Source: Dioscorea cayenensis subsp. rotundata
Taxonomy: Eukaryota; Streptophyta; Magnoliopsida; Dioscoreales; Dioscoreaceae
Direction: 5' to 3'
Assembly (NCBI RefSeq): GCF_009730915.1
Contig: NW_024088559.1
Location: 1 to 64,000 of the forward strand
DNA: 64,000 bases
A model generated the notes under the pieces. The model ran no database searches. It was not told where the DNA came from and saw only the letters and a list, made by a program, of their open reading frames with translations. Positions within the stretch are counted from its first letter, which is position 1. Each line of letters begins with the position of its first letter. Of the stretch, positions 1,508 to 53,095 are shown one piece after another. The position numbers and the translations under genes are program-made.

Positions 1508-8194
<6,687 letters not shown>

Positions 8195-8617
8195 GATGAT
8201 TCTAGCTAGGGTTTGCCCTTGCCGATCAATTGTGGGAAGAAGGAAGGAGATGGAGAGAAGGATTCGAGATCGTGATGACGGTGCTGGTATTTGGCTTTAT
8301 TTGGTTCTAGAGATCAGGGCACGGGAAGATCGTGACCGAACACGTGGAAGTCGTTGAGTCAGAAAGCAACCGTATCGTTAAAAAACTGGGGGTGCTGTAA
8401 ACTACCGAATATTCCCGCGCGCTCGCTGGTTTTTTTTTTTGGGAAGACCGCCTTCGGGAAAGCTTCTGGATCATTGTTGAGAATTGGAATTTATAGAGTG
8501 GAAAATAAGTGGTTTTTTTTTTCTATTAATATATTTTATTCTTTTAAAATTTTAAATGGTGTAGGCTTGTAGGAAATAAGTGGAAAATAAATCGAAGAAA
8601 ATGTAGAAAAATTTGAG
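8195..8617. other. PGI promoter and 5' leader region
   Basis: Contains the presumed PGI 5' UTR and promoter, read leftward. An aaaccctag telo-box-like motif on the minus strand lies just upstream of the ATG (about 8204-8214). No gene is seen on either strand. Confidence 0.5.
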
Positions 8618-8690
8618 CGACTCCGCTGGGGATCGAACCCAGAATCTCTGGTTCCGTAGACCAGCGCCTTATCCATTGGGCCACGGAGTC
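8618..8690 (-). tRNA. tRNA-Arg (ACG)
   Basis: Reverse complement begins GACTCCG and ends CGGAGTC plus discriminator G, giving a perfect 7-bp acceptor stem. The D-arm contains GGATAAGG, the anticodon arm is CTGGT-CTACGGA-ACCAG with anticodon ACG, and the T-arm carries GGTTCGATCC. Length is 73 nt with no intron and no encoded CCA, as expected for a plant nuclear tRNA. ACG is wobble-modified to ICG and reads CGU/CGC/CGA. It sits 424 bp upstream of the PGI start on the same strand. Confidence 0.97.
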
Positions 8691-17946: not shown

Positions 17947-20900
17947 ATGGCGGAGGAGCAGCCCGCCGTCGCATCACCTGCGCAGTTCCCGCCTGCTGGG
18001 CCGATCGGAAGCTCAGTGATCCCGATCGTAAATAAGCTCCAGGATATCTTCTCTCAGCTCGGAAGTTCTTCCACGATTGATCTTCCTCAGGTGGCGGTTG
18101 TGGGCAGCCAGAGCAGTGGGAAATCAAGCGTACTTGAGGCACTCGTTGGCCGTGATTTCTTGCCTCGCGGGACGGACATTTGCACGCGGAGGCCGCTGGT
18201 TCTGCAGCTCGTGCACTGGCCTCGTCGGGCAGATGCGGCTGAGGGCGACGAGTGGGGGGAGTTTCTTCACTTGCCTGGGAAGAGGTTCTATGATTTCTCG
18301 GATATCCGGAGGGAGATACAGGTATTGTGTTCTCTTATTTCCCTTTTCATTTGTATTGAAAAACCTTGGTCATTCGAGTTCTACCTTTGAAAACTTCAAA
18401 TCTGTAGTTGTTCGTAGTTGTAACTGTATGCTTAAGTATACAATTGGACACACTGTTCTTGTTTCCAAGTAGTATAGTGTTTAATTTCCTGAGCATCCAA
18501 GGATAATTTTATGTTATCAGGAGAAAGAGTCATCTTTAGCTTGTGTGTTTTTCTTATGTTTTAGTGATAGAATAGTGCAGATAGTTTTTTTTTTGCCAAA
18601 AGATAAACAATGAGCACAGAGAAATGTGAAACTACCTGTGGTTACATTTTATTTCAAGAATTAAGGCTTCTCTTCTCCACACTGAGTTCTTTAAACAAGA
18701 CTGTTGGATATCAAAAGTTCTCAAACTTTTGTTTTTTCTTGATATCAAAATCCAACCACCTTTTTATTTGGTCTCCTGACAAGAAATTTTATTTCTTCCC
18801 TGTCTTTTAGTTAAATGCATCTCTACTTTTCCATATGAACAGCTGCTACTTCTTATCGCTTTGCTTTGAGTTAAACGAACTTGCTGTTCAATATTGCAGG
18901 CTGAAACAGATAGAGAAGCAGGAGGAAATAAGGGAGTTTCAGACAAGCAGATTCGTTTGAAGATATTCTCACCCAATGTTTTAAATATTGCTTTGGTCGA
19001 TCTGCCTGGAATAACCAAAGTGCCTGTTGGTGACCAACCAAGTGATATCGAGTCAAGAATACGAACCATGATTGCATCCTACATCAAACATGAGACTTGC
19101 ATAATCTTAGCAGTTTCACCAGCAAATGCAGATTTATCAAATTCTGATGCACTTCAAATGGCAAGGACAGTTGATCCAGATGGTAATTTATTTAGACCAT
19201 TGATCTTTTCATTTGTGCATCAATTTTGTAAAATGGACATTTTTTAGGGAAAGGCAATGCATATGATGCAAAATGTTAAGTGTCCATTGAGCATTGGATT
19301 TGACATGACTCTCTTTTCTAACAGGTTCCCGGACTATTGGTGTCATCACAAAGGTCTCCTTTTATGAGCTTTTACTTAATATATTTGTGTTATATGGGTA
19401 TTTGTTACTCCCTCCATTCCTTTTTATTTGTCGTGGTTAATAAAATCTCACATACCAAGAAACTTAGTTATTTCACAAAGTTTTATAAAAAATTAGTTAT
19501 CTTTCCAAAATTACCCCTAATTTATATCTTCAAATTTCTCTCATATTTAATTTCAACAAGAGAGTTAAATAAAGTGTTAAGGGTAATTTTGGAAAAAAAA
19601 TAATAAATGCTTTTTGATGTTAGAAAATGACAGATAAAAAAGTACATGGATTTGTGACAGATAAAAAGGAATGGAGGGAGTAGTATTTTCTATTTGCTGT
19701 TGAACATGACCATCAATTTATTTCTTGGTTCAGTTGGATATAATGGATAGAGGTACTGATGCTCGCAATTTCTTAATGGGAAAGGTGATCCCTCTAAGAC
19801 TTGGTTATGTGGGTGTAGTGAATCGTAGTCAACAGGTATGACCTTTGTTAATCATCTTGAGTTTATTATAAGCGCATGAATTGGTGAGTATGTGCTACTT
19901 TCTCTGATTTGACTAGACTGAGATGTGATTGGTAAACTGGCATGAAAAAAGAATAAGTTATATATGAAGAGGATTTTGGAGTGAAACTCCATTCTAAGGA
20001 TAGGATACATGAAGCTTAATAGTATAGGTGTACATATGCTGTAGTGTGTGATGAGACCTTTATTGCACGGGCTTATGACGTATCATCTTATCAATTGGCA
20101 ATTTAAATCCTTTCTGGGTGAATGGTGGATGACTTACTGAATATAGGATGAACAGATAAATGGTTTTATCTTTTGTTTTTAGCATTCTAGTTTTCTTGAC
20201 TAAGAACATTGATATTCTATTGCCTGGATAACTATGCTACTTGAGTGTTTTCACTGCATGAAAACCTTTTGGGGGAAATTCATAACAAGGGGACATCCGA
20301 AACACATCATACAACAAATATGATTGTGACTGACCTGCATGAAAACCTTCTTTTGGTGAAATTCATAACAAGGGGACATCCGAAACACATCATACAACAA
20401 ATATGATTGTGACTGACCTTCTTTGGATGTTTGATTTGACCAAGAAGTTAAGAGTTGTGTTTGTGCATTCATTTATACGAGTTTAAACCTTACTTGAGAA
20501 CTGTCCTTTTGTTCTGAGGATTTCATGCACTTTGGTCTAGCATCATCTTGATTTTGAGGCAAGCACTCTCGAATTATTTTGGCAGGACTTCACCATTGGC
20601 TACTCTTCTATGAGATTTTATTCTAAATCTATTGCCATAAAATGGAGAGCTGATTGGTATTTGAAGTTTGACTGATCTATCTTTGGACATAGGAAACTGG
20701 TCATCTTATTTGTCCTGTCTGTTAAACATCATATTCATTTTTGGTTTTCAATTGATCAGGACATTAACCAGAACCGAAGTATCAAAGAAGCATTAGCCAA
20801 TGAAGAAAGCTTCTTCCACACTCATCCTGTATTTCTTCTCAAATTACAAGTTTGCATATTTTCAATAGCAAATCTGTTTTTATGAATTCATTGACTTTTG

Positions 20901-41206: not shown

Positions 41207-41752
41207 TCGGGTACACCGCGCGCGCGCGATCGAGCGAGAGATGCCAGAATTATGAAGATAATTTTTCCAATGTGGCAAAGAATAAGATTGGGTTGTTATC
41301 GGGTCGGATCTTTTTTTAGATCCGATAGTTCCCTACATACAACGGTGTGGGGAATGAGTAGTGTACACTGTATAGGAGATACAAGTGTCTTTTAACTCAA
41401 CCACTATACCCAATATTTTTTTTTATTCTTGGTATTTTGTGGCAACACCACAAGTTGTCGCGACATGCTTTACTTGAGTGAACCATGACATTAAAAAATT
41501 ATATCAGTTGATTATCAAATGACCTCATATCTAGGTACAAAATGATTGTTACAAGGAAGTCCTAATTATAACGGTGTCATGGAAACTGGACACAGAATCC
41601 AGTGTTCATTTGTAATATGCTGCGTTTAAGCACCATCCAGCTCAGGTGTGTAAAGAGGTAAGATCAAAACTCTTTCGGTATTTATAATAAAATAAACTAA
41701 AAAAAAAAAGAAATTAAAAGAGCGAAGATCATCTTGAAAGCTTCCTAGCCAC
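41207..41752. other. Methyltransferase promoter and RPL17 downstream spacer
   Basis: Just upstream of the methyltransferase ATG is a short GC-rich stretch with ggtacaccgcgcgcgcgcgatcg around 41212-41234. The remainder is AT-rich. No gene is seen. Confidence 0.5.
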
Positions 41753-43093
41753 TCATGATGATGTACCACTGTGAAAAGCCTGAGTTGATTTCTTCGTCTT
41801 TCCAGGGCGCAAGCTGAGTATCAGGCTGCAAAAAGATGAGAGACACTTAGCCTTAAGCACATCGCCAGACTAAGATCTCCAGTACAAACATGATTTCTTA
41901 GTAATACTTGATTAAACTTTAGACTTTATGAATGAAAACTATGAGCCTGAATACTCACCGAACAATGTTACACAAATATGCTACAGCATTTTGCATTGGT
42001 TTAGACACAACAGAACAATCAATTCATTACAGATTTATTGTTTAGGAAGCAAGTGATATGTACTACATTTGAGATGCATGATACAACAAAACTGGCAATT
42101 GAGCCCACCAAAGGATGGTACTAAAGTTCCAACAAATTCGCAAGCAATCGCAAATGAGTCAAAAGTCACATCTTTCTTGACAGGCTCTTCCTTCTCAGAC
42201 AAGGGTAATTCAATATGGCAGGGGGATGACATATAAGCTGTCATAACAAAGTTCAGTCATTATATATCCTATAAATGCATCAGCGAAGCAAAAAATCATG
42301 CATCAATGCCAAACTTACAATTAATTCTGCCATGAGCCCTACATGTTCGGCCCCTCTGCTTCTGGGCTGATTCACGTGGATGTGGGATATGTTACATATG
42401 TATAGGGTGTCCACATCCAAACCTGTCACCTGCCATTTAACATAATGCAAAATGATTATATAATGCAGAAAGAGATAAAGACAGGACTTTCTACATCTGG
42501 TTACTTTCAGCATTTTTGAGTAAATATAAGATGAACCTGGTAGATTTTACAGGCCAGCACCGCAGTCCATTTGGATGATGATTTTTAGCCAGAGCAGTAC
42601 AACCCACGCCTCTGCAATACCTAGTGGAGGAAACTGCTTGTTCGTAAGCTATCACATCATCAAAATACCTTTTAGCTTTCAAAAGAGGCAGCTTCCCTAT
42701 TACAACAGCTCTACCCCGGGTGTTCTATTGAAGAGAAGCAGCATACAGGCAACATGGGATAGACATGGTAAGACAATATCATATTTTGATAAAATAAAAG
42801 AACAAATACAGACCCATACAAAACCTAAACTCATTCATAATGTAAATGAAGTTTACTAATTGTGGCTAGTCAAATTAGTACCCACAGTATTATGCTCGAA
42901 TGGCTTATTTCCACAAGGCCACAAAAACATGTCAATATTTTGTACAATAAAGAGGATATGATTTATTAAATGAACACAAAATCAAAATCTGTCACCACTC
43001 TTATGTGTAGGGCACAAGCATTTGGAGGAGGTTTTATTCAAATAAATACCTTGGAGAGTATATTAGTAGGGACACATCAAAACCTTATTATAA

Positions 43094-43226
43094 AAATGTA
43101 CCATCATTTACTGAACCTTCAATCATTGAAAAGAACAAAGGTTCACCCAATAACAATGTACATGATTTTCCTGAAGCTTACGAGAGGCCTATCGATAAAT
43201 ACAACAGGCCACTGCTTTTTTCCAGG
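43094..43226 (-). ncRNA. H/ACA snoRNA-like copy A
   Basis: 133 nt on the host-transcript strand. The 5' hairpin is closed by CCTGGA/TTCAGG with an inner GTGGCCT/AGGCC stem. The hinge contains AAATCA (ANANNA). The 3' hairpin has TGAACCT/AGGTTCA as its upper stem, and ACA lies three bases before the 3' end. Copy A is nearest the 3' end of the intron. Confidence 0.7.
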
Positions 43227-43265
43227 TTTAAAAAAAAAAAAAAATCACTCAAACTGAGATTGTTT

Positions 43266-43394
43266 TATTGTATCATCATTTACTGAACCTTTTACCATAA
43301 TCGAAAGAGGTTCACCCAATAACAATGAACCTGATATTCCTGGAGCTTACGAGAGGCCTATCGATAAATACAACAGGCCACTGCTTTTTTCCAG
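43266..43394 (-). ncRNA. H/ACA snoRNA-like copy B
   Basis: 129 nt. CTGGA/TCCAG closes hairpin 1, whose inner stem is GGCCT/AGGCC. The hinge box is ATATCA. Hairpin 2 has upper stem TGAACCT/AGGTTCA and lower stem TCATT/AATGA, followed by GATACAATA with ACA at the expected place. Very similar to copy C. Confidence 0.75.
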
Positions 43395-43432
43395 ATATTA
43401 TAAAAAAAAAAATCCTCAAACTGAGATTGTCT

Positions 43433-43567
43433 TATTGTATCATCATTTACTGAACCTTTTACCATTGAGATAATCGAAAGAGGTTCACCCAATAACAATG
43501 AACCTGATATTCCTGGACCTTACGAGAGGCCAATCGATAAATACAACAGGCCACTGCTTTTTCCAGG
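43433..43567 (-). ncRNA. H/ACA snoRNA-like copy C
   Basis: 135 nt. CCTGGA/TCCAGG closes hairpin 1, with GGCC/GGCC in the inner stem. The hinge is ATATCA, the upper stem of hairpin 2 is TGAACCT/AGGTTCA, and ACA is followed by ATA. The hairpin-2 loop is slightly longer than in copy B (adds tctca). Confidence 0.75.
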
Positions 43568-43600
43568 TTAAAAAAACATTTCTCAAACCAAAAATTATAT

Positions 43601-43737
43601 TTATCTATCATCATTTACCAAGCTGTTTACCGTTGAGATAATCAATAGTGGTTCACCCACTAACAATGCACATAATTTCCCCAGAGATTCGGAGAGAGCT
43701 ACTGGAAAATGCAATAGAACCCTGCTTTTTTCCAGGG
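43601..43737 (-). ncRNA. H/ACA snoRNA-like copy D, diverged
   Basis: 137 nt. The inner stem of hairpin 1 is CTATTG/CAGTAG, a different sequence from B and C but still paired. The hinge is AAATTA, which fits ANANNA. The upper stem of hairpin 2 is weakened and the ACA position reads AGA, so this copy may be non-functional. Confidence 0.5.
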
Positions 43738-44076
43738 TAAAGCAAAGTGTGTTCTCAAGCATCATGCCCTATCTGACACAGAATGGTAGTGCAACTAAGA
43801 GCAGAGGAAAAAATATATCTGGTTCCCTTAGGCAGTCAATGCTTCATTAAATGAAAATTGCAAAATTATTCACATATCTTTCCCTTGTTAGGGTGCTAAC
43901 AAAAAATCATGGATACCTATACCCTGTAAAAATTGGAAAAAGAGTCCCTGTGATCTACAATAGAGCTCTACTGCTCTAACAGAGAAAAGAATGCCAGACA
44001 GTGTTGTACCATGCTGCAGGAAAAATGCACTGGACAATGCACGTAAACAAAATACTAGAAAATCCAAATTTTACTT

Positions 44077-44210
44077 TTATGTTTCATCATTTACTGAACC
44101 TTTTATCATTGTGAAATCGACATAGGTTCACCCAATAACAATGCACATGATTTTCCTGGAGTTTATGAGAGACCAATTGACAAACACAATTGAACCCTGC
44201 TTTTTCCAGG
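44077..44210 (-). ncRNA. H/ACA snoRNA-like copy E
   Basis: 134 nt. CCTGGA/TCCAGG closes hairpin 1; the inner stem is CAATTG/CAATTG. The hinge is AAATCA, the upper stem of hairpin 2 is TGAACCT/AGGTTCA, and the 3' end reads GAAACATAA with ACA in place. It lies 340 bp from copy D, a wider gap than between A, B, C and D. Confidence 0.7.
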
Positions 44211-44242
44211 TAAATGAAAAAAATATTATAAACTCATTTTAT

Positions 44243-44378
44243 CCATATGCATCATTGCACCACTGTTACCGAACCTCTTATCATCACCAAAGTCTTGAAA
44301 GGTTCACCAAATCATAATGACATCAATCTCCCTGAATCATCAGACAACCATTGATGGAAACAACAGACCAATAATTTT
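44243..44378 (-). ncRNA. H/ACA snoRNA-like copy F, degenerate
   Basis: About 136 nt, recognisable from GGTGAACCT/AGAGGTTCGG in hairpin 2 and CAATGATGC near the 3' end. Hairpin 1 closing bases and the H and ACA boxes are not convincing. It is nearest the 5' end of the intron. Confidence 0.4.
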
Positions 44379-45034
44379 TTTATATATATATTTAGGTTAA
44401 AAAATCCATATATATTAACATTCAGTTCCACCCATGCCAAAATGGGCTGATTTAATTTTCATTGATAATTAATGACACGTAAAGCATGAAGAGCGAGAAC
44501 AAAATCATACTATTTCAATCTTCTGTCTGGCTGAAACCTAAACTAACAAATCTAGTTTTACAAAGGCTAGTACAATAACATCTGAATGAGAAAAAAAAAG
44601 CAAAACAAGAACATACCTTGAAGTGAGCCCTGAGACCACGGCCCATGGCTTTCGAGGCTGCAAATTCGTGAACCAAAACTCAGAATCATCAAAACCACAA
44701 AAAAAAAAGAAAAAGAAAAAGAAATCATAAACGCTTCATCATCGGAGGCCACATGGCGGGGTTTCGATCCGAAAACAAAGACAATAAAAACCCATAGATC
44801 TAGAAAGCAGAAGCAGGAAGAGAATGGAGAGCTTACAGTTGGTGGGATTCTCGGATTCCCTCAAGCACTTCACCTGCAGAGGTAGAGGAATTCACGACAT
44901 CGAACACTGGAAATCGGACAAACGATGCACAAAAACGGAGAAGGAGGAGGAGGAGAGAACCATGGCGGCTGCTAGGCGAACTGCGGCGACGCAGATTGGA
45001 GCTCCACCGCTTGCGAAAAGGGAATACGCAGAGG

Positions 45035-45068
45035 TTTATATAGAAAGGAAGACCCAGAGAAACCCTAG
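45035..45068 (-). promoter_or_regulatory. Retained promoter of the RPL17-derived locus (TATA box plus telo-box)
   Basis: Minus strand reads TATATAAA at 45042-45035, preceded by the telo-box CTAGGGTTT at 45068-45060. Telo-boxes near the start site are a known hallmark of plant ribosomal-protein promoters. Downstream lies an untranslated first exon and an intron leading to the acceptor at 44874. The leader contains an ATG opening a short 22-codon frame in a good context (gccgccATGG). Confidence 0.6.
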
Positions 45069-47582: not shown

Positions 47583-49180
47583 TCATGTGCTACCAGGAGC
47601 ATCATTTCCACCGGCTGGTTTACGATTTAAATACCGGATAACAGCATCTTCCACCCTGGAATATACAGAAGATGATAATGCTTACCATTCCAATGTTTAT
47701 AAAGTGATAAATTCGTATAACAAGGAATAAACTTATACCATGGTTGGTTGTAGAAGTCTGAACGGCGTTCCTTTTCTGCATTACGACCTGCATCCCCAGC
47801 TACAAGTTTTAAGTCCCGACTTTGTGAAGCAATCAAAGCATTTATAAACTCAACCGGAGACTGGCTGAACCCAAGGAAGAATGCTCTTCTCCTACGATGC
47901 TCGTGAATTTTCTTAATTGATGCACAAATAACTTCATCGCATGCCTCAATCTCTTTATGCTTCTCAGAGTTTGTAAGAAATGCTGACATCTCCTTCTGCA
48001 ATGGAAAAGGCACATCCACCAAGACATCATAGCATGCATTGCCCACAGGACCATTTCCTGAAAGTCTGATTTTATGATCAAACTGTATTGGTTGTGGCGG
48101 AAACAAATGTTGGGAAATTTTCTGTGACACTAAAGAGAACTTCAATTTATCCTCTCCAAAAACCTTCTTCAGTGGGGGATCACATATAAAGAAAGATGGG
48201 TCACTTGGATTCTGCAACTTCCTCGCTTTCACATACTGCCATATCCCAGCTATAATCCTGGCACGGGTGTCAACTTCAATACCAAGAACTTCCATCAAAG
48301 GTGGTGAAAGCCTAAACTTCTCAGGATTATAATTCATGTCTAACCGAATACTGACAGTGAACTCTTTATCCCCCTTTCTTTTAACCTCAAATCCTTCATG
48401 AGATGCAGGAGATCTAGCATGTTCCCAAATAATTGTTGGGTTATCTGGATACAGTGTTGGGTCCAACGCAATGGTGATTCTTTTGAAGAAAGACGAGAAC
48501 TTGGGATACATTGGGTTCGGTTTCGGTAGCCCACTCACAGGATCAGGATCAACTCCATCCTCCAATATCCTTCCCACAATTTTCAGTGACCAAGTTGGGG
48601 GTTCAGTATTCTTATTCTCCGGTGTTCTTGGTGTCTGGTTAGCAAATGTATTGAAAACATAAATCCGGAGGGTTCTCTGCAGAGTCGGAGGACTTTTGAG
48701 GGATTCCTGGATGTCAACCTTCTTGCGGGTAAGAGCCGCATCTACACGAGCCTCAAACTCAAGCAACTGCGTATACAGTGCAGACTCAGGGAGAAGAGCT
48801 GCCACCCGATCGGGTAGCTGTTTCTCTGGGAGCTTGCGCTTCTTGCGCCGTGCAGCAGGAGTGAGCTCCCCGGTCTTGAAGGCTTGCATGTTGATAGGGA
48901 GTGCGGCAGGAGCAGGGGGGCGTGCAGGGGGCTTCTGAGGGGGGCGTTTAGGAATGCCAGACATGCCAGGGGCGGAAAGAGAAGGATTTGGGGATTGAGA
49001 GGGGATGTGGAGCTGGAACGGGGAGTGATGCTGCGACTGGGGGTGCATTGGGGGTGGGGTTTGAAATAGAGCTTGGAATGGAGAGGAAGATGCCATCGGG
49101 GACTGGGTTTGAGGGTTGACAGGGCCCGGCATCATGCCACCGCCCATCGGACGGGGTTGATTGGTGTTGTTGGACGCCAT
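47583..49180 (-). CDS. SWP73: SWI/SNF subunit SWP73 (BAF60/SNF12) with SWIB domain
   Basis: Accessory subunit of SWI/SNF chromatin-remodelling complexes in the nucleus. Two exons (49180-47739, 47655-47583), 504 aa, joined at [13 protein letters not shown]. The Pro/Gln/Ser-rich N-terminus (about 1-95) is followed by a basic patch ([11 protein letters not shown]), a central BAF60 region ([22 protein letters not shown]) and the SWIB domain at about 290-370 ([16 protein letters not shown] to [10 protein letters not shown]). The C-terminal BAF60 part ([20 protein letters not shown]) follows. The ATG at 49180 begins MASNNTNQ; the longer frame upstream would need a TTG start and is not used. A 5' UTR intron (about 49405-49218) is possible. 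Confidence 0.96.
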
Positions 49181-50809
49181 GAAAAGCAAAATCCAACCAG
49201 AGAAGGACGATCAAAAGAACCCTAAAAAACGTTAATTTTATAAAAACAGAGGAAGCCCTACTTCCTTGATTTTCAAATCAAACATTTCAAGAAAAAAACT
49301 CCTGGATTGTTTGTTTCCAGCTTCCCAAACGAATCAAAGCCTTTTCAACCCAAAATTTCTGCGTCAAACCCTATGTTCATCCCAGAAATTCAGATAAACA
49401 CTGACCTTCGGAGAAGATGAGGCGAGATCCGAAGGGAGGATGAAATTCCTGCTGCTCAAGCATCAAAGAAACCAGCGATTCGAGGACCCAAAAGAAAGAA
49501 AGCTTCAAGAAACGAGGTCGTCGACGGGAAGTCGGAGTTCTGATCAAAACCCTAGAAAACCCTGGCTTCGATCGAAGCAGGTGATCCGCTTTATCGGGTT
49601 GGGATGTTCATTTAGATCTGTTGAAGCTCTGAGTGTCGATCACGAGGCAGCGCTAATTTTGAGGAACCAGAAGGTTAAAATACTCAATTGGTCCTAGAAT
49701 TTTTAAATCATATCCAAACTTTTATTTTAAATTTTTAATCCTTAAATCCAGGAAAAATGACATTTTACTCCCTAAAGCATATGATAATGTTAATTTTAAT
49801 CCTTAAAACAATTAAATATACTTAATTTTTAATAATTAATTCACATAACTACTATATTTATTTCAGTTTTTAAAAAACAAAAAGATACTCATTTTGATCA
49901 TTACATTTATGCCTATATTTAATAAAAAAATTTATTGACAGTAATCTAATATTCATCTTTATGCATGAATTATTTATTAACTTATTTATTTTTATTAATA
50001 TGCTATCTCTATCTTTAGTGGATTTACGTCATACAATTTTGTTAAATCTAGCAATCGGCCAATCACTTTTATAAGTTTACTGCCGCATTGTGGATGAGGT
50101 AGCAAAAAATTATTACAACTTCAACATTTTTTCCTATTAAAACTTCATATAGCAAGTGATAGGACATATGATGTCAAATTTTTATAATAATAATAATAAT
50201 AATAATAACATATTTATTTATTTAATAATAGATGATAAGTGCGGTTAAAACGATATAATAAATAATACATAAACTGTGTATAGTATAATGCCATATGCAT
50301 AGGGTTTCAAATATATTGATCCATTGCCAAATGCTCTACTATTATCTCAAGCAAATGTTGACCAAAATAATAATAATAATAATAATAATAATATTAAGTA
50401 TTGTATTGAATGTTTTATAAATAATTAGTACAAAATAAATATTAAAGTTAAATAATTGGATAAATATATATATATATGCATAAGATGATAATTTGATGAC
50501 TATGGTCGTTATAAACAATATCAAAACATAATTTATGCATAATATTTATAAAAATAAATATACAGTATTATTAAATAAAATGATGATCTAATAAATATAA
50601 TTAAATGTCTCTTTTCTTTAGAAAAGTAATATAAGGACGTATTTAAATTATCTTCTTTTTTGTGTGTGTGTGTGTGTGTGTGTGTTATAAAGTTAAAACA
50701 AAAATTGTTTTCTCTAGTTCTCGGCAGTCGGCAGGGCAAACAAGAGAGCGTATGCCACTGCTCTCTCCCGGCACCATCACCATCACCATCGGCCGATGAG
50801 CACATCCGC
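49181..50809. other. Divergent promoter region between SWP73 and the PPR gene
   Basis: About 1.6 kb separating two divergently read genes. The left 400 bases hold the SWP73 5' UTR. The middle is very AT-rich with (TAA)n tracts at 50184-50208 and 50366-50393. A (TG)n run at 50661-50685 lies 125 bp before the PPR start. Confidence 0.6.
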
Positions 50810-53095
50810 ATGAGATGGCCAGGATTGATACCCTTGTTCCTCCCCAAACCCCCCTCACTCCTCCGATCCATCCCTCTCTCCGACCCCTACCTCTCCTCTC
50901 TCTCCCCTCACCTCTCCCCCTCCTCCATCTCCTCCGCCCTCAACCTCCTCCCCTTCCCCTCCGCCTTCCGCCTCTTCCTCTGGACCTCCTTCCATCGCCA
51001 TCTCCGCTCCTTCGACTCCCACAACATCATCATTTCCACTCTCGTTTCTTCACCTGACGACTCCTTCCCCTCCGCTTGGCAAGTTCTATCCGACTTCCAC
51101 TCCTCCGGAAATCCCGTCCACCCTGCCGCCTTTACCGTCCTCATCTCCGCCTACTCTGCTGCTGGCCTTCCGGAGAAGGCTGTGGAGACCTTCTCTAGGA
51201 TGCAGGATTTTGGCTCCCGCCCCAACACCTTCACTTACAATACTTTGTTGAGGGTTTTGATTGAGAAAGATGTCATCTTGCTCGCCATGGCTGTTTATAA
51301 TCTCATGCTCAAGTCTGATTGCCGCCCGAATAGTGCTTCTTATGGGATTTTGATTGATGGTCTTTGTAAGGCTGGGAAGAATGAGGATGCGTTGAAGTTG
51401 TTTGATGAAATGCTTCAGCGATGTGTGCCACCCAATGCGGTTATTTATACTGTGTTTTTGACTTCCTTGTGTGGTGCTGGCAAGATTGAGGATGCAATGC
51501 GGCTGCTTGGGACCATGAAGGAGAAGAATTGCCCACCGGATGATGCAGTGTACAATGCGATGTTGAGTGGGTTCTGTAAGGCGGGTAGGATTGATGAGGC
51601 GTTTGAGAATTTGAAGGCTTTTCAGGGGGATGGTTTTGTTCTTGGATTGAGTGGATATAGTTGTTTGATCGATGGCTTGTTCCGGGCTGAGAGGTTTGAG
51701 GACGCATGCAGTTACTACAAGGAGATGTTGACGAAAAGTTTGGTGCCGGATTGTGTGTTGTATACAATCATGATAAGAGGGTACTTGGAGGCTGGGAGGG
51801 TTGATGAAGCTTTCAGTTTTCTCGGTGAGATGACTGACAAGGGTGTAGTTCCAGATACCTTTTGTTATAATACTTTGATCAAAGGTCTTTGTGATTCTGG
51901 CCATTTGAATAGAGCTCGTTCTCTGAGGTTGGAGATTTCAAAACATAATTGCTTTCCTGACTCAGCCACTTACACCATTATGATTTGTGGATTGTGCAAG
52001 GAAGGGATGATTCATGAGGCTCAAGAGATTTTTGATGAGATGGGGAAGCATGGGTGTGCCCCAACAGTCATGACTTTCAATGCGCTCATCAATGGGCTTT
52101 GCAAAGCTGGCCAGCTCAAAAAAGCTAACTATCTGTTTCATAAGATGGAGATGGGGAGAAATCCTTCCCTGTTTCTTCGGCTATCTCAAGGTACAAATCG
52201 TGTCCATGACAGTCATAGTCTCCGGAAATTGGTTGAAGATTTGTGCGAGTCTGGTCTTGTACTAAAGGCATATAAGCTTCTCCGTGATATCATAGATAGT
52301 GGAGTTGTACCTGATGTTGTCACATACAACATACTGATTAATGGCTTTTGTAAAGAAGGGGACCTCAATGGAGCTCTGAATCTCTTCAAGCGGCTTCAGC
52401 TTGAGGGGCACATGCCTGATGATGTTACATACAGCACACTTATTGATGGGCTACTAAAAGTTCGTCGGAAAGAGGATTCCTCATTGATTTATCAGCATAT
52501 GTTGAGGAACGGATATGCCACTAGTTTGTCAATATGCGCTACCCATATGAGAACTATGTGTCGGGAGAAGAGAGTTTCACAAGCTGTGAACTTCTGGCTG
52601 GACCACCTCTTGCAAGATAGTGCCCTTTCTGATGAAAAGGAAACCATTAAACTTGTGCAAAAACAATTCGAGCAGGAATATCTAGAAGAAGCGATTAGAA
52701 CCCTAATTGAGATGGATCAAAGGCGGAACGCTGTCAATTCATTTCCATACACAATTTGGCTCATTGGATACTGTCAAGCTCAAGCTATTGATAAAGCTCT
52801 CAAAATCTTCTCCCTTCTTGTTGAGTATAAAATTGATGTTACTCCCCCTAGTTGTGTACTCCTTATCAATGGCCTTTGTCGGAAGGGGAAACTGGGGTCA
52901 GCTTTAAATGTCATGCTTTATTCATTGGGTAAAGGTTACTTATTCATGCAGCCTGTTGGGAACCGGCTTCTTAAGAGACTCTGCATTTATAATAAGAAGA
53001 GAGCTGCATGTGAGCTTGCAAAGAGAATGCATCTTACAGGATATGACATGGATCTGTATCTTCGAGACACTACCAAAGCTCTGCTGTATAATTAA
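50810..53095 (+). CDS. P-class pentatricopeptide repeat protein, intronless
   Basis: RNA-binding protein presumed to act on organelle transcripts. A single exon of 761 aa. I chose the ATG at 50810 (MRWPGLIPLF) because the frame upstream is translated from a (GT)n microsatellite (MCVCVCVC) and is implausible. The N-terminus is rich in Ser, Leu and Pro with few acidic residues, as in a mitochondrial presequence. About 16 P-type 35-residue repeats follow from about residue 105, for example SYGILIDGLCKAGKNEDALK, VTYNILINGFCKEG and VLLINGLCRKGKLGSALN. A degenerate patch lies between repeats 10 and 11. There is no E, DYW or SMR domain. Absence of introns is normal for plant PPR genes. Confidence 0.95.
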   Translation: MRWPGLIPLFLPKPPSLLRSIPLSDPYLSSLSPHLSPSSISSALNLLPFPSAFRLFLWTSFHRHLRSFDSHNIIISTLVSSPDDSFPSAWQVLSDFHSSGNPVHPAAFTVLISAYSAAGLPEKAVETFSRMQDFGSRPNTFTYNTLLRVLIEKDVILLAMAVYNLMLKSDCRPNSASYGILIDGLCKAGKNEDALKLFDEMLQRCVPPNAVIYTVFLTSLCGAGKIEDAMRLLGTMKEKNCPPDDAVYNAMLSGFCKAGRIDEAFENLKAFQGDGFVLGLSGYSCLIDGLFRAERFEDACSYYKEMLTKSLVPDCVLYTIMIRGYLEAGRVDEAFSFLGEMTDKGVVPDTFCYNTLIKGLCDSGHLNRARSLRLEISKHNCFPDSATYTIMICGLCKEGMIHEAQEIFDEMGKHGCAPTVMTFNALINGLCKAGQLKKANYLFHKMEMGRNPSLFLRLSQGTNRVHDSHSLRKLVEDLCESGLVLKAYKLLRDIIDSGVVPDVVTYNILINGFCKEGDLNGALNLFKRLQLEGHMPDDVTYSTLIDGLLKVRRKEDSSLIYQHMLRNGYATSLSICATHMRTMCREKRVSQAVNFWLDHLLQDSALSDEKETIKLVQKQFEQEYLEEAIRTLIEMDQRRNAVNSFPYTIWLIGYCQAQAIDKALKIFSLLVEYKIDVTPPSCVLLINGLCRKGKLGSALNVMLYSLGKGYLFMQPVGNRLLKRLCIYNKKRAACELAKRMHLTGYDMDLYLRDTTKALLYN

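Follow-up and report, generated by a model that had tools for sequence, protein, structure and literature searches.

A tandem array of snoR74 H/ACA snoRNA units in an intron of an apparently decayed RPL17 duplicate of Dioscorea cayenensis subsp. rotundata

In the 64,000 nucleotides of Dioscorea cayenensis subsp. rotundata DNA analyzed here (referred to as the window; assembly GCF_009730915.1, contig NW_024088559.1), six related tandem units of the plant H/ACA snoRNA family snoR74 are present on the minus strand inside 43094-44380. They are found within one intron of a gene which, as judged from its sequence, is a duplicated copy of RPL17 (uL22) that no longer encodes RPL17, and two intact paralogues of this gene are present in the same genome. 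We consider it rather likely that this RPL17 duplicate lost its protein and has persisted as a carrier of snoR74, the 3' pocket of which would guide modification of the A-loop of the 25S rRNA. The broken RPL17 gene looks like a dedicated snoRNA host. The coordinates of the array, the host exons and the promoter elements are summarized in Table 1.

Table 1. Features of the snoR74 array and of its RPL17-derived host (window positions; unit matches refer to Rfam RF01231).
Feature	Positions	Strand	Basis or remark
Unit A, intact snoR74 copy	43094..43231	-	109 bits, match 43094-43221; two-hairpin fold; local folding z
Unit A, H box AAATCA	43168-43163	-	
Unit A, left arm of 3' guide, TTATTGGGTG	43153-43144	-	
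Unit A, right arm of 3' guide, CAGTAA	43113-43108	-	
Unit A, ACA	43099-43097	-	
Unit B, intact snoR74 copy	43266..43400	-	96.3 bits, match 43266-43390
Unit C, intact snoR74 copy	43433..43573	-	87.6 bits, match 43433-43563
Unit D, decaying snoR74 copy	43601..43742	-	63.3 bits, match 43601-43731; alignment; lowest-energy fold
Unit E, intact snoR74 copy	44077..44216	-	98.9 bits, match 44077-44206; identities
Unit F, decayed snoR74 copy	44253..44385	-	41.3 bits, match 44253-44380; array model 102.9 bits
Telo box TAGGGTTT (AAACCCTA on the other strand)	45060..45067	-	105 nt upstream of the ATG
TATAAA	45035..45040	-	78 nt upstream of the ATG
Host exon 1	44961..45040	-	taken to run from TATA box to ATG; GTTCTC intron after the ATG, as in the C14 paralogue
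Host exon 2, RPL17 remnant	44837..44873	-	homology
Host exon 3, RPL17 remnant	44617..44657	-	homology
Host intron 3, array-bearing, GTATGT...CAATAG, 1892 nt	42725..44616	-	position shared with the intact paralogues
Host exon 4, RPL17 remnant, 1-nt deletion near 3' end	42495..42724	-	homology
Host exon 5, RPL17 remnant, early stop at its start, 9-nt insertion, 1-nt deletion	42319..42429	-	
Host exon 6, RPL17 remnant	42170..42237	-	homology
Host exon 7, RPL17 remnant, 1-nt insertion	41745..41825	-	3' end drawn to the stop codon, transcript end unmapped

The array and its six units

A search against Rfam 15 placed five of the six units above the gathering score of 44 bits of the family RF01231 (snoR74), and unit F narrowly below it (E = 0.00066). 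Furthermore, a covariance model of the array itself detected all six over the 64 kb at 102.9-163.4 bits, scores which are high by construction since the model was built from those units. With this model no seventh unit was found in the window, the next best match having 15.4 bits, nor in an unfiltered run over the intron, and the only Rfam match that passed elsewhere in the window was a tRNA. A tRNA-Arg (anticodon ACG) is located at 8617-8690 on the minus strand, and a two-copy tandem repeat of 83 nt with 95% matches at 20254-20419.

The sequence-only reading of the window had described six tandem H/ACA copies within an intron of a gene resembling RPL17, and this is supported. The covariance search against Rfam that it had proposed was run, and the family that it had left unnamed is snoR74. 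Since the units match this Rfam entry, the array is not a new family, and since the family was already known, its not being recognized is no evidence of novelty. The units belong to an established plant H/ACA snoRNA family and sit at a type of site already known for such RNAs. It shares with RF01231 the full-length covariance matches, the two-hairpin plan and, in four units, the H and ACA boxes; what differs is that a single intron contains six units in tandem, of which two are decayed.

The complete plan of two hairpins with an H box and an ACA three nucleotides from the 3' end is found in four of the six units (A, B, C, and E). Here, the H box reads AAATCA in A and E and ATATCA in B and C, the ACA is kept, and the upper 3' stem TGAACCT/AGGTTCA is retained in the alignment. 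Unit D has this stem broken and reads AGA in place of ACA, with an H box (AAATTA) that still fits ANANNA; unit F has neither box, its sequences being AGATTG and GCA. The plan of A, B, C, and E, the two hinge variants and the decay of D and F had been proposed from the letters of the window. The 5' closing stem CCTGGA/TCCAGG that had been given for the same copies stands only in part, as it is not uniform: A ends with TTCAGG and B begins with TCTGGA.

Unit A folds into two hairpins at -46.0 kcal/mol, the fold of B shows an extra small hairpin in the hinge, and the lowest-energy folds of D and F depart from the two-hairpin plan. In tiles of 130 nt, the folding z-score reaches -4.46 for A, followed by C (-3.17), B (-2.82), E (-2.26), and D (-1.79), and the tiles of unit F are not unusually stable. 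Pairwise identity across the six units ranges from 52 to 94%. Units A, B, and C share 84-94% among themselves, E is 76-82% identical to these three, D 70-73% to A, B, C, and E, and F 52-65% to every other unit. Covariation among the six is limited to two pairs changed on both sides, a value reached in 209 of 500 shuffles.

The spacers between the units are T-rich. Units D and E are spaced by 475 nt compared to 168-176 nt between the other neighbors, which leaves room for almost two lost units. Within this gap (43743-44076, 334 nt), an unfiltered search with the array model revealed no relic of a unit (best 4.1 bits on the same strand and 6.1 on the other), no Rfam match was obtained at E up to 1, and the folding of the eight 130-nt tiles lying wholly inside was not unusual (z -0.78 to 0.63).

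The array is the sole snoR74 locus found in the 584-Mb assembly, by searches that are lower bounds. RF01231, for which 57 of 41321 first-look candidates were scored, gave five matches, all of them in the array; a DNA search using unit E likewise gave five, again all in the array. This indicates that the array is not a dispersed repeat; the idea of a SINE or satellite family present at many loci, named in the sequence-only reading as an outcome that would speak against it, is not borne out within the limits of these searches. RF01231 had no match in 14 control genomes, and a pattern derived from snoR74 gave 0 matches in viral contigs.

The host gene and its intact paralogues

By homology, the host consists of seven exons and six introns, and all six introns keep GT and AG. 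The units are on the host strand within the GT-AG intron that homology with the intact paralogues delimits. This intron had been counted as the second, with a length of 1.9 kb; the length is correct, and the position becomes the third when the intron right after the ATG is included, as the intact paralogue supports. Here, the first exon of the host ends at the ATG, the same arrangement as in the intact RPL17 gene on contig C14 of this genome. Exon 1 is drawn from the TATA box with the transcript start unmapped, so that the true exon 1 would be shorter. The loss of RPL17 coding in the host, as well as any target of the snoRNAs, had been absent from the sequence-only reading.

Upstream of the ATG a telo box and a TATA box are retained, and a search of 500 nt gave neither a site II motif nor a TEF box. 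In passages of PMC3022908, telo boxes are described as usual promoter elements of ribosomal-protein and snoRNA genes in plants. The neighboring open reading frames encode a SWIB-domain protein (47627-49189, minus strand) and a PPR protein of 811 codons (50660-53095, plus strand).

The full-length RPL17 frame, which has 183 codons in both intact paralogues, is absent from the host. In comparison to C14, two 1-nt deletions (at the end of exon 4 and in exon 5), a 1-nt insertion (exon 7), and a 9-nt insertion (exon 5) are present, and the spliced frame meets its first stop at codon 105, which precedes the exon 5/6 junction by 107 nt. In a PDB search the host stretch is recognized as L17 (E = 4.3e-37), and with Pfam Ribosomal_L22 it scores 13.9 bits vs. 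46 bits for the same stretch of Arabidopsis, the cut-off being 28. Over residues 2-101, the host is identical to the L17 proteins of Arabidopsis, tobacco, tomato, and wheat among the PDB rows at 62, 62, 61, and 67 positions per 100, and the four plant proteins share 80-94 per 100 among themselves. Residues in common with the wheat row, KAMGRDLR and CGGVG, point to a monocot. Twenty-three of the 76 positions that are invariant in these four are changed in the host, as are 15 of the 46 that are also kept in the PDB row L17-A, which we take to be yeast.

A protein search of the 584-Mb assembly revealed three RPL17 loci, namely C14, C5, and the copy in the window. Both C14 and C5 are uninterrupted and encode 183 amino acids each. 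The 7-kb region of each gave no match in Rfam and, under default filter settings and E values of up to 10, none to the array model either, and unfiltered searches of the corresponding introns yielded no convincing relic of snoR74 (best 8.7 bits, E = 0.3).

At sites where C14 and C5 agree, private substitutions of the window copy amount to 22 of 153, 17 of 161, and 30 of 86 at codon positions 1, 2, and 3, respectively, i.e., 0.144, 0.106, and 0.349 per site. C14 and C5 differ from each other at 11, 4, and 79 of 165 sites each, so that the rate at second positions is 0.106 for the window copy vs. 0.024 between C14 and C5. These rates suggest that the window copy is clearly relaxed at second codon positions, yet was not fully neutral over its whole history. 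The private changes fall mostly at third codon positions, so that the copy probably encoded the protein during much of its past, and the loss of the frame may be recent. For this reason, the retained splice sites say little about selection.

Predicted target of the 3' pocket

The pocket of an H/ACA snoRNA pairs with both sides of the target uridine, about 14 nt from the ACA. Here, the left arm TTATTGGGTG and the right arm CAGTAA of the 3' pocket form 6 + 4 bp with the 25S A-loop on the two sides of a single uridine, in the sequence ATTG[TT]CACCCA. This 10-bp pairing is found in all four intact units with the pocket 14 nt before the ACA, which is the top of the pocket in the one chosen among four boundaries tried. 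Past 6 bp the left guide arm mispairs with the plant-type A-loop. Three rRNA copies in the same genome read GGATTGTTCACCCACCAATAGGG at this stretch, found by a search pattern that fixed all letters but one.

The scan for targets covered LSU pieces of 1841 nt (L014) and 526 nt (L003), a piece of 7001 nt with 833 N which is partly rRNA (L015r), and an SSU piece of 912 nt (L004). In the two LSU pieces and in L015r, the A-loop was the best site of the 3' guide with a score of 23.5, all others there reaching at most 10.0, and the SSU piece contained no site of A-loop strength (best 13.5). By chance, 0.04 such sites are expected per 5467 nt of random rRNA-like sequence, and on both strands of the window 2 of 41693 uridines score as well by chance.

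Several contigs outside the window carry rRNA of eukaryotic type. L002, filed under a Mucilaginibacter MAG, has two eukaryotic LSU rRNA segments (1-97 and 4349-4975) with about 4.3 kb of other sequence between them; it looks like an element sitting in rDNA and is probably a eukaryotic contamination. The IMG/VR contig L001 starts with a eukaryotic LSU rRNA fragment (1-361), with seemingly unrelated sequence after about 130 nt, and two further IMG/VR contigs, L004 (3632-4543) and L005 (4059-4305), contain eukaryotic SSU rRNA pieces.

Units A, B, C, and E show no difference in the 22 alignment columns that make up both 3' guide arms together with the lower 3' stem. Outside of these columns, E differs from A, B, and C at 32, 28, and 25 positions (P 0.0015, 0.0034, and 0.0084), and for the 16 guide columns alone the corresponding values are P 0.01, 0.018, and 0.034; all of these refer to columns picked after the target was seen. 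Among the guide and lower-stem columns, D differs from E in 3 of 22 and F in 6 of 21. The altered left arm of D, TTAGTGGGTG, pairs with 7 bp into the A-loop compared to 6 in the intact units, and the guide of D scores 22.5 at the A-loop and is outscored by other sites of L015r at 24.0.

Taken at face value, the pairing geometry suggests that the uridine of the 25S A-loop equivalent to yeast Psi2923 is probably the target of the 3' pocket in the four intact units. A section of PMC8351944 describes a pseudouridylation site in the A-loop of Arabidopsis and names no guide for it. In yeast, U2923 sits in the A-loop (PMC1766470, in part) and Psi2923 is made by snR10 (passages of PMC7277114 and PMC9045821). 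A published target of snoR74 was not found in the portions searched of the plant literature naming this snoRNA, section 5 of PMC5122169 among them. The units described here share with snR10 the same A-loop uridine as predicted, an equivalence by predicted target only. The human counterpart would presumably be position 4500. This position has been reported as m3U (PMC10227372, in part), so that a pseudouridine in the A-loop need not be universal.

For the 5' pocket, a 28S segment of animal type that precedes the A-loop pairs well with units A, B, and C (7 + 3 bp). This candidate was dropped: both copies from this genome that cover the site have a C at the target U, and E and D pair poorly (7 + 1). 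The two rDNA copies (L014 and L015) are mutually divergent with many indels and may represent pseudo-rDNA or assembly noise, and due to this the rejection is not absolute. U4 and other RNA snippets were considered as targets as well and given no weight.

Proposed role of the locus and its alternatives

In the course of events that we propose, RNA polymerase II would start at the promoter with its preserved telo box and TATA box, splicing would remove all six introns from the transcript, and intron 3 would release the four intact snoR74 copies together with the two decayed ones. In the joined exons, two exon junctions lie beyond the premature stop. A stop at such a distance ahead of later junctions generally exposes an RNA to nonsense-mediated decay, and the spliced RNA would probably go untranslated or be degraded. 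Dyskerin and its partners would bind each intact snoR74, the 3' pocket of which would then base-pair with the 25S A-loop and turn the uridine equivalent to yeast U2923 into pseudouridine, as snR10 does in yeast. The family, the boxes, the fold, the decay of the host beside its intact paralogues, the finding of no second snoR74 locus in the assembly and the pairing geometry come from computation; transcription, processing, modification of the A-loop and selection on the locus for its snoRNAs we infer. A further step would be a split of labor after the duplication of RPL17, in which two genes keep the protein without snoR74 and the third is the only source of snoR74 in the genome, a non-coding host under selection. 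For this step we see the chances as evenly balanced.

It is unlikely, although the most probable of the alternatives, that host and guests are all dead, the frame having been lost recently and the functional snoR74 coming from a locus that is missing from the assembly or was missed by the searches. The decay of units D and F would fit this, as would the private changes, which are still mostly at third codon positions and point to a recent loss, and the genome searches, which are lower bounds. Against it, both boxes and an unchanged pair of 3' guide arms are found in four copies that differ in other columns, the telo box, the TATA box and all six GT-AG pairs are retained, and no other snoR74 copy was found in the assembly. 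Furthermore, snoR74 has been reported throughout land plants, though it is absent from some species examined, according to part of PMC5122169, so that some source of snoR74 is expected in this genome.

Much less probable is that a functional protein of RPL17 type, divergent or shortened to 104 residues, is still produced from the host, with the snoRNAs as ordinary passengers. Its first 104 codons are open and third-position changes dominate. However, exons 5 to 7, which account for roughly two fifths of the protein, are cut off or out of frame, changes affect 23 of the 76 plant-invariant residues and 15 of the 46 also kept in the presumed yeast row, and the Pfam score is down to 13.9 bits. That the units are a SINE, a satellite or another dispersed repeat merely resembling H/ACA RNAs is suggested by the tandem arrangement and the T-rich spacers, but we regard it as extremely improbable, since a curated snoRNA family is matched at up to 109 bits and the five DNA matches in 584 Mb, a lower bound, are all in the array.

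With the carrier of snoR74 as the preferred reading, the locus can be set beside known systems. It resembles the intronic snoRNA clusters of rice, as far as these are described in passages of PMC3022908, in that the cluster resides in the intron of a gene of ribosomal-protein type with a telo box upstream; it differs in that the host has lost its frame and no site II motif was found within 500 nt. With the non-coding snoRNA host genes (SNHGs), as portrayed in passages of PMC7719101, it has in common a spliced host with apparently non-coding exons and snoRNAs in an intron, the splicing here being presumed; in contrast to them, the RPL17 ancestry is readable and intact paralogues are present in the same genome. 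Within the literature searched, mostly abstracts together with passages of PMC3022908, PMC3511168, and PMC7719101, no description was found of a decayed RPL17 host with snoR74-free intact paralogues or of the A-loop target.

The array alone is an ordinary plant snoRNA cluster, and it is the host that gives the interest. Non-coding snoRNA hosts are usually poorly conserved, whereas at this locus one can still read the ribosomal-protein exons with the lesions in them, and two intact paralogues besides. If the split of labor is true, this locus catches a protein gene in the process of turning into a snoRNA host gene. The predicted A-loop target, if right, would mean that this plant has a guide for a pseudouridine of the very loop with which the A-site tRNA pairs.
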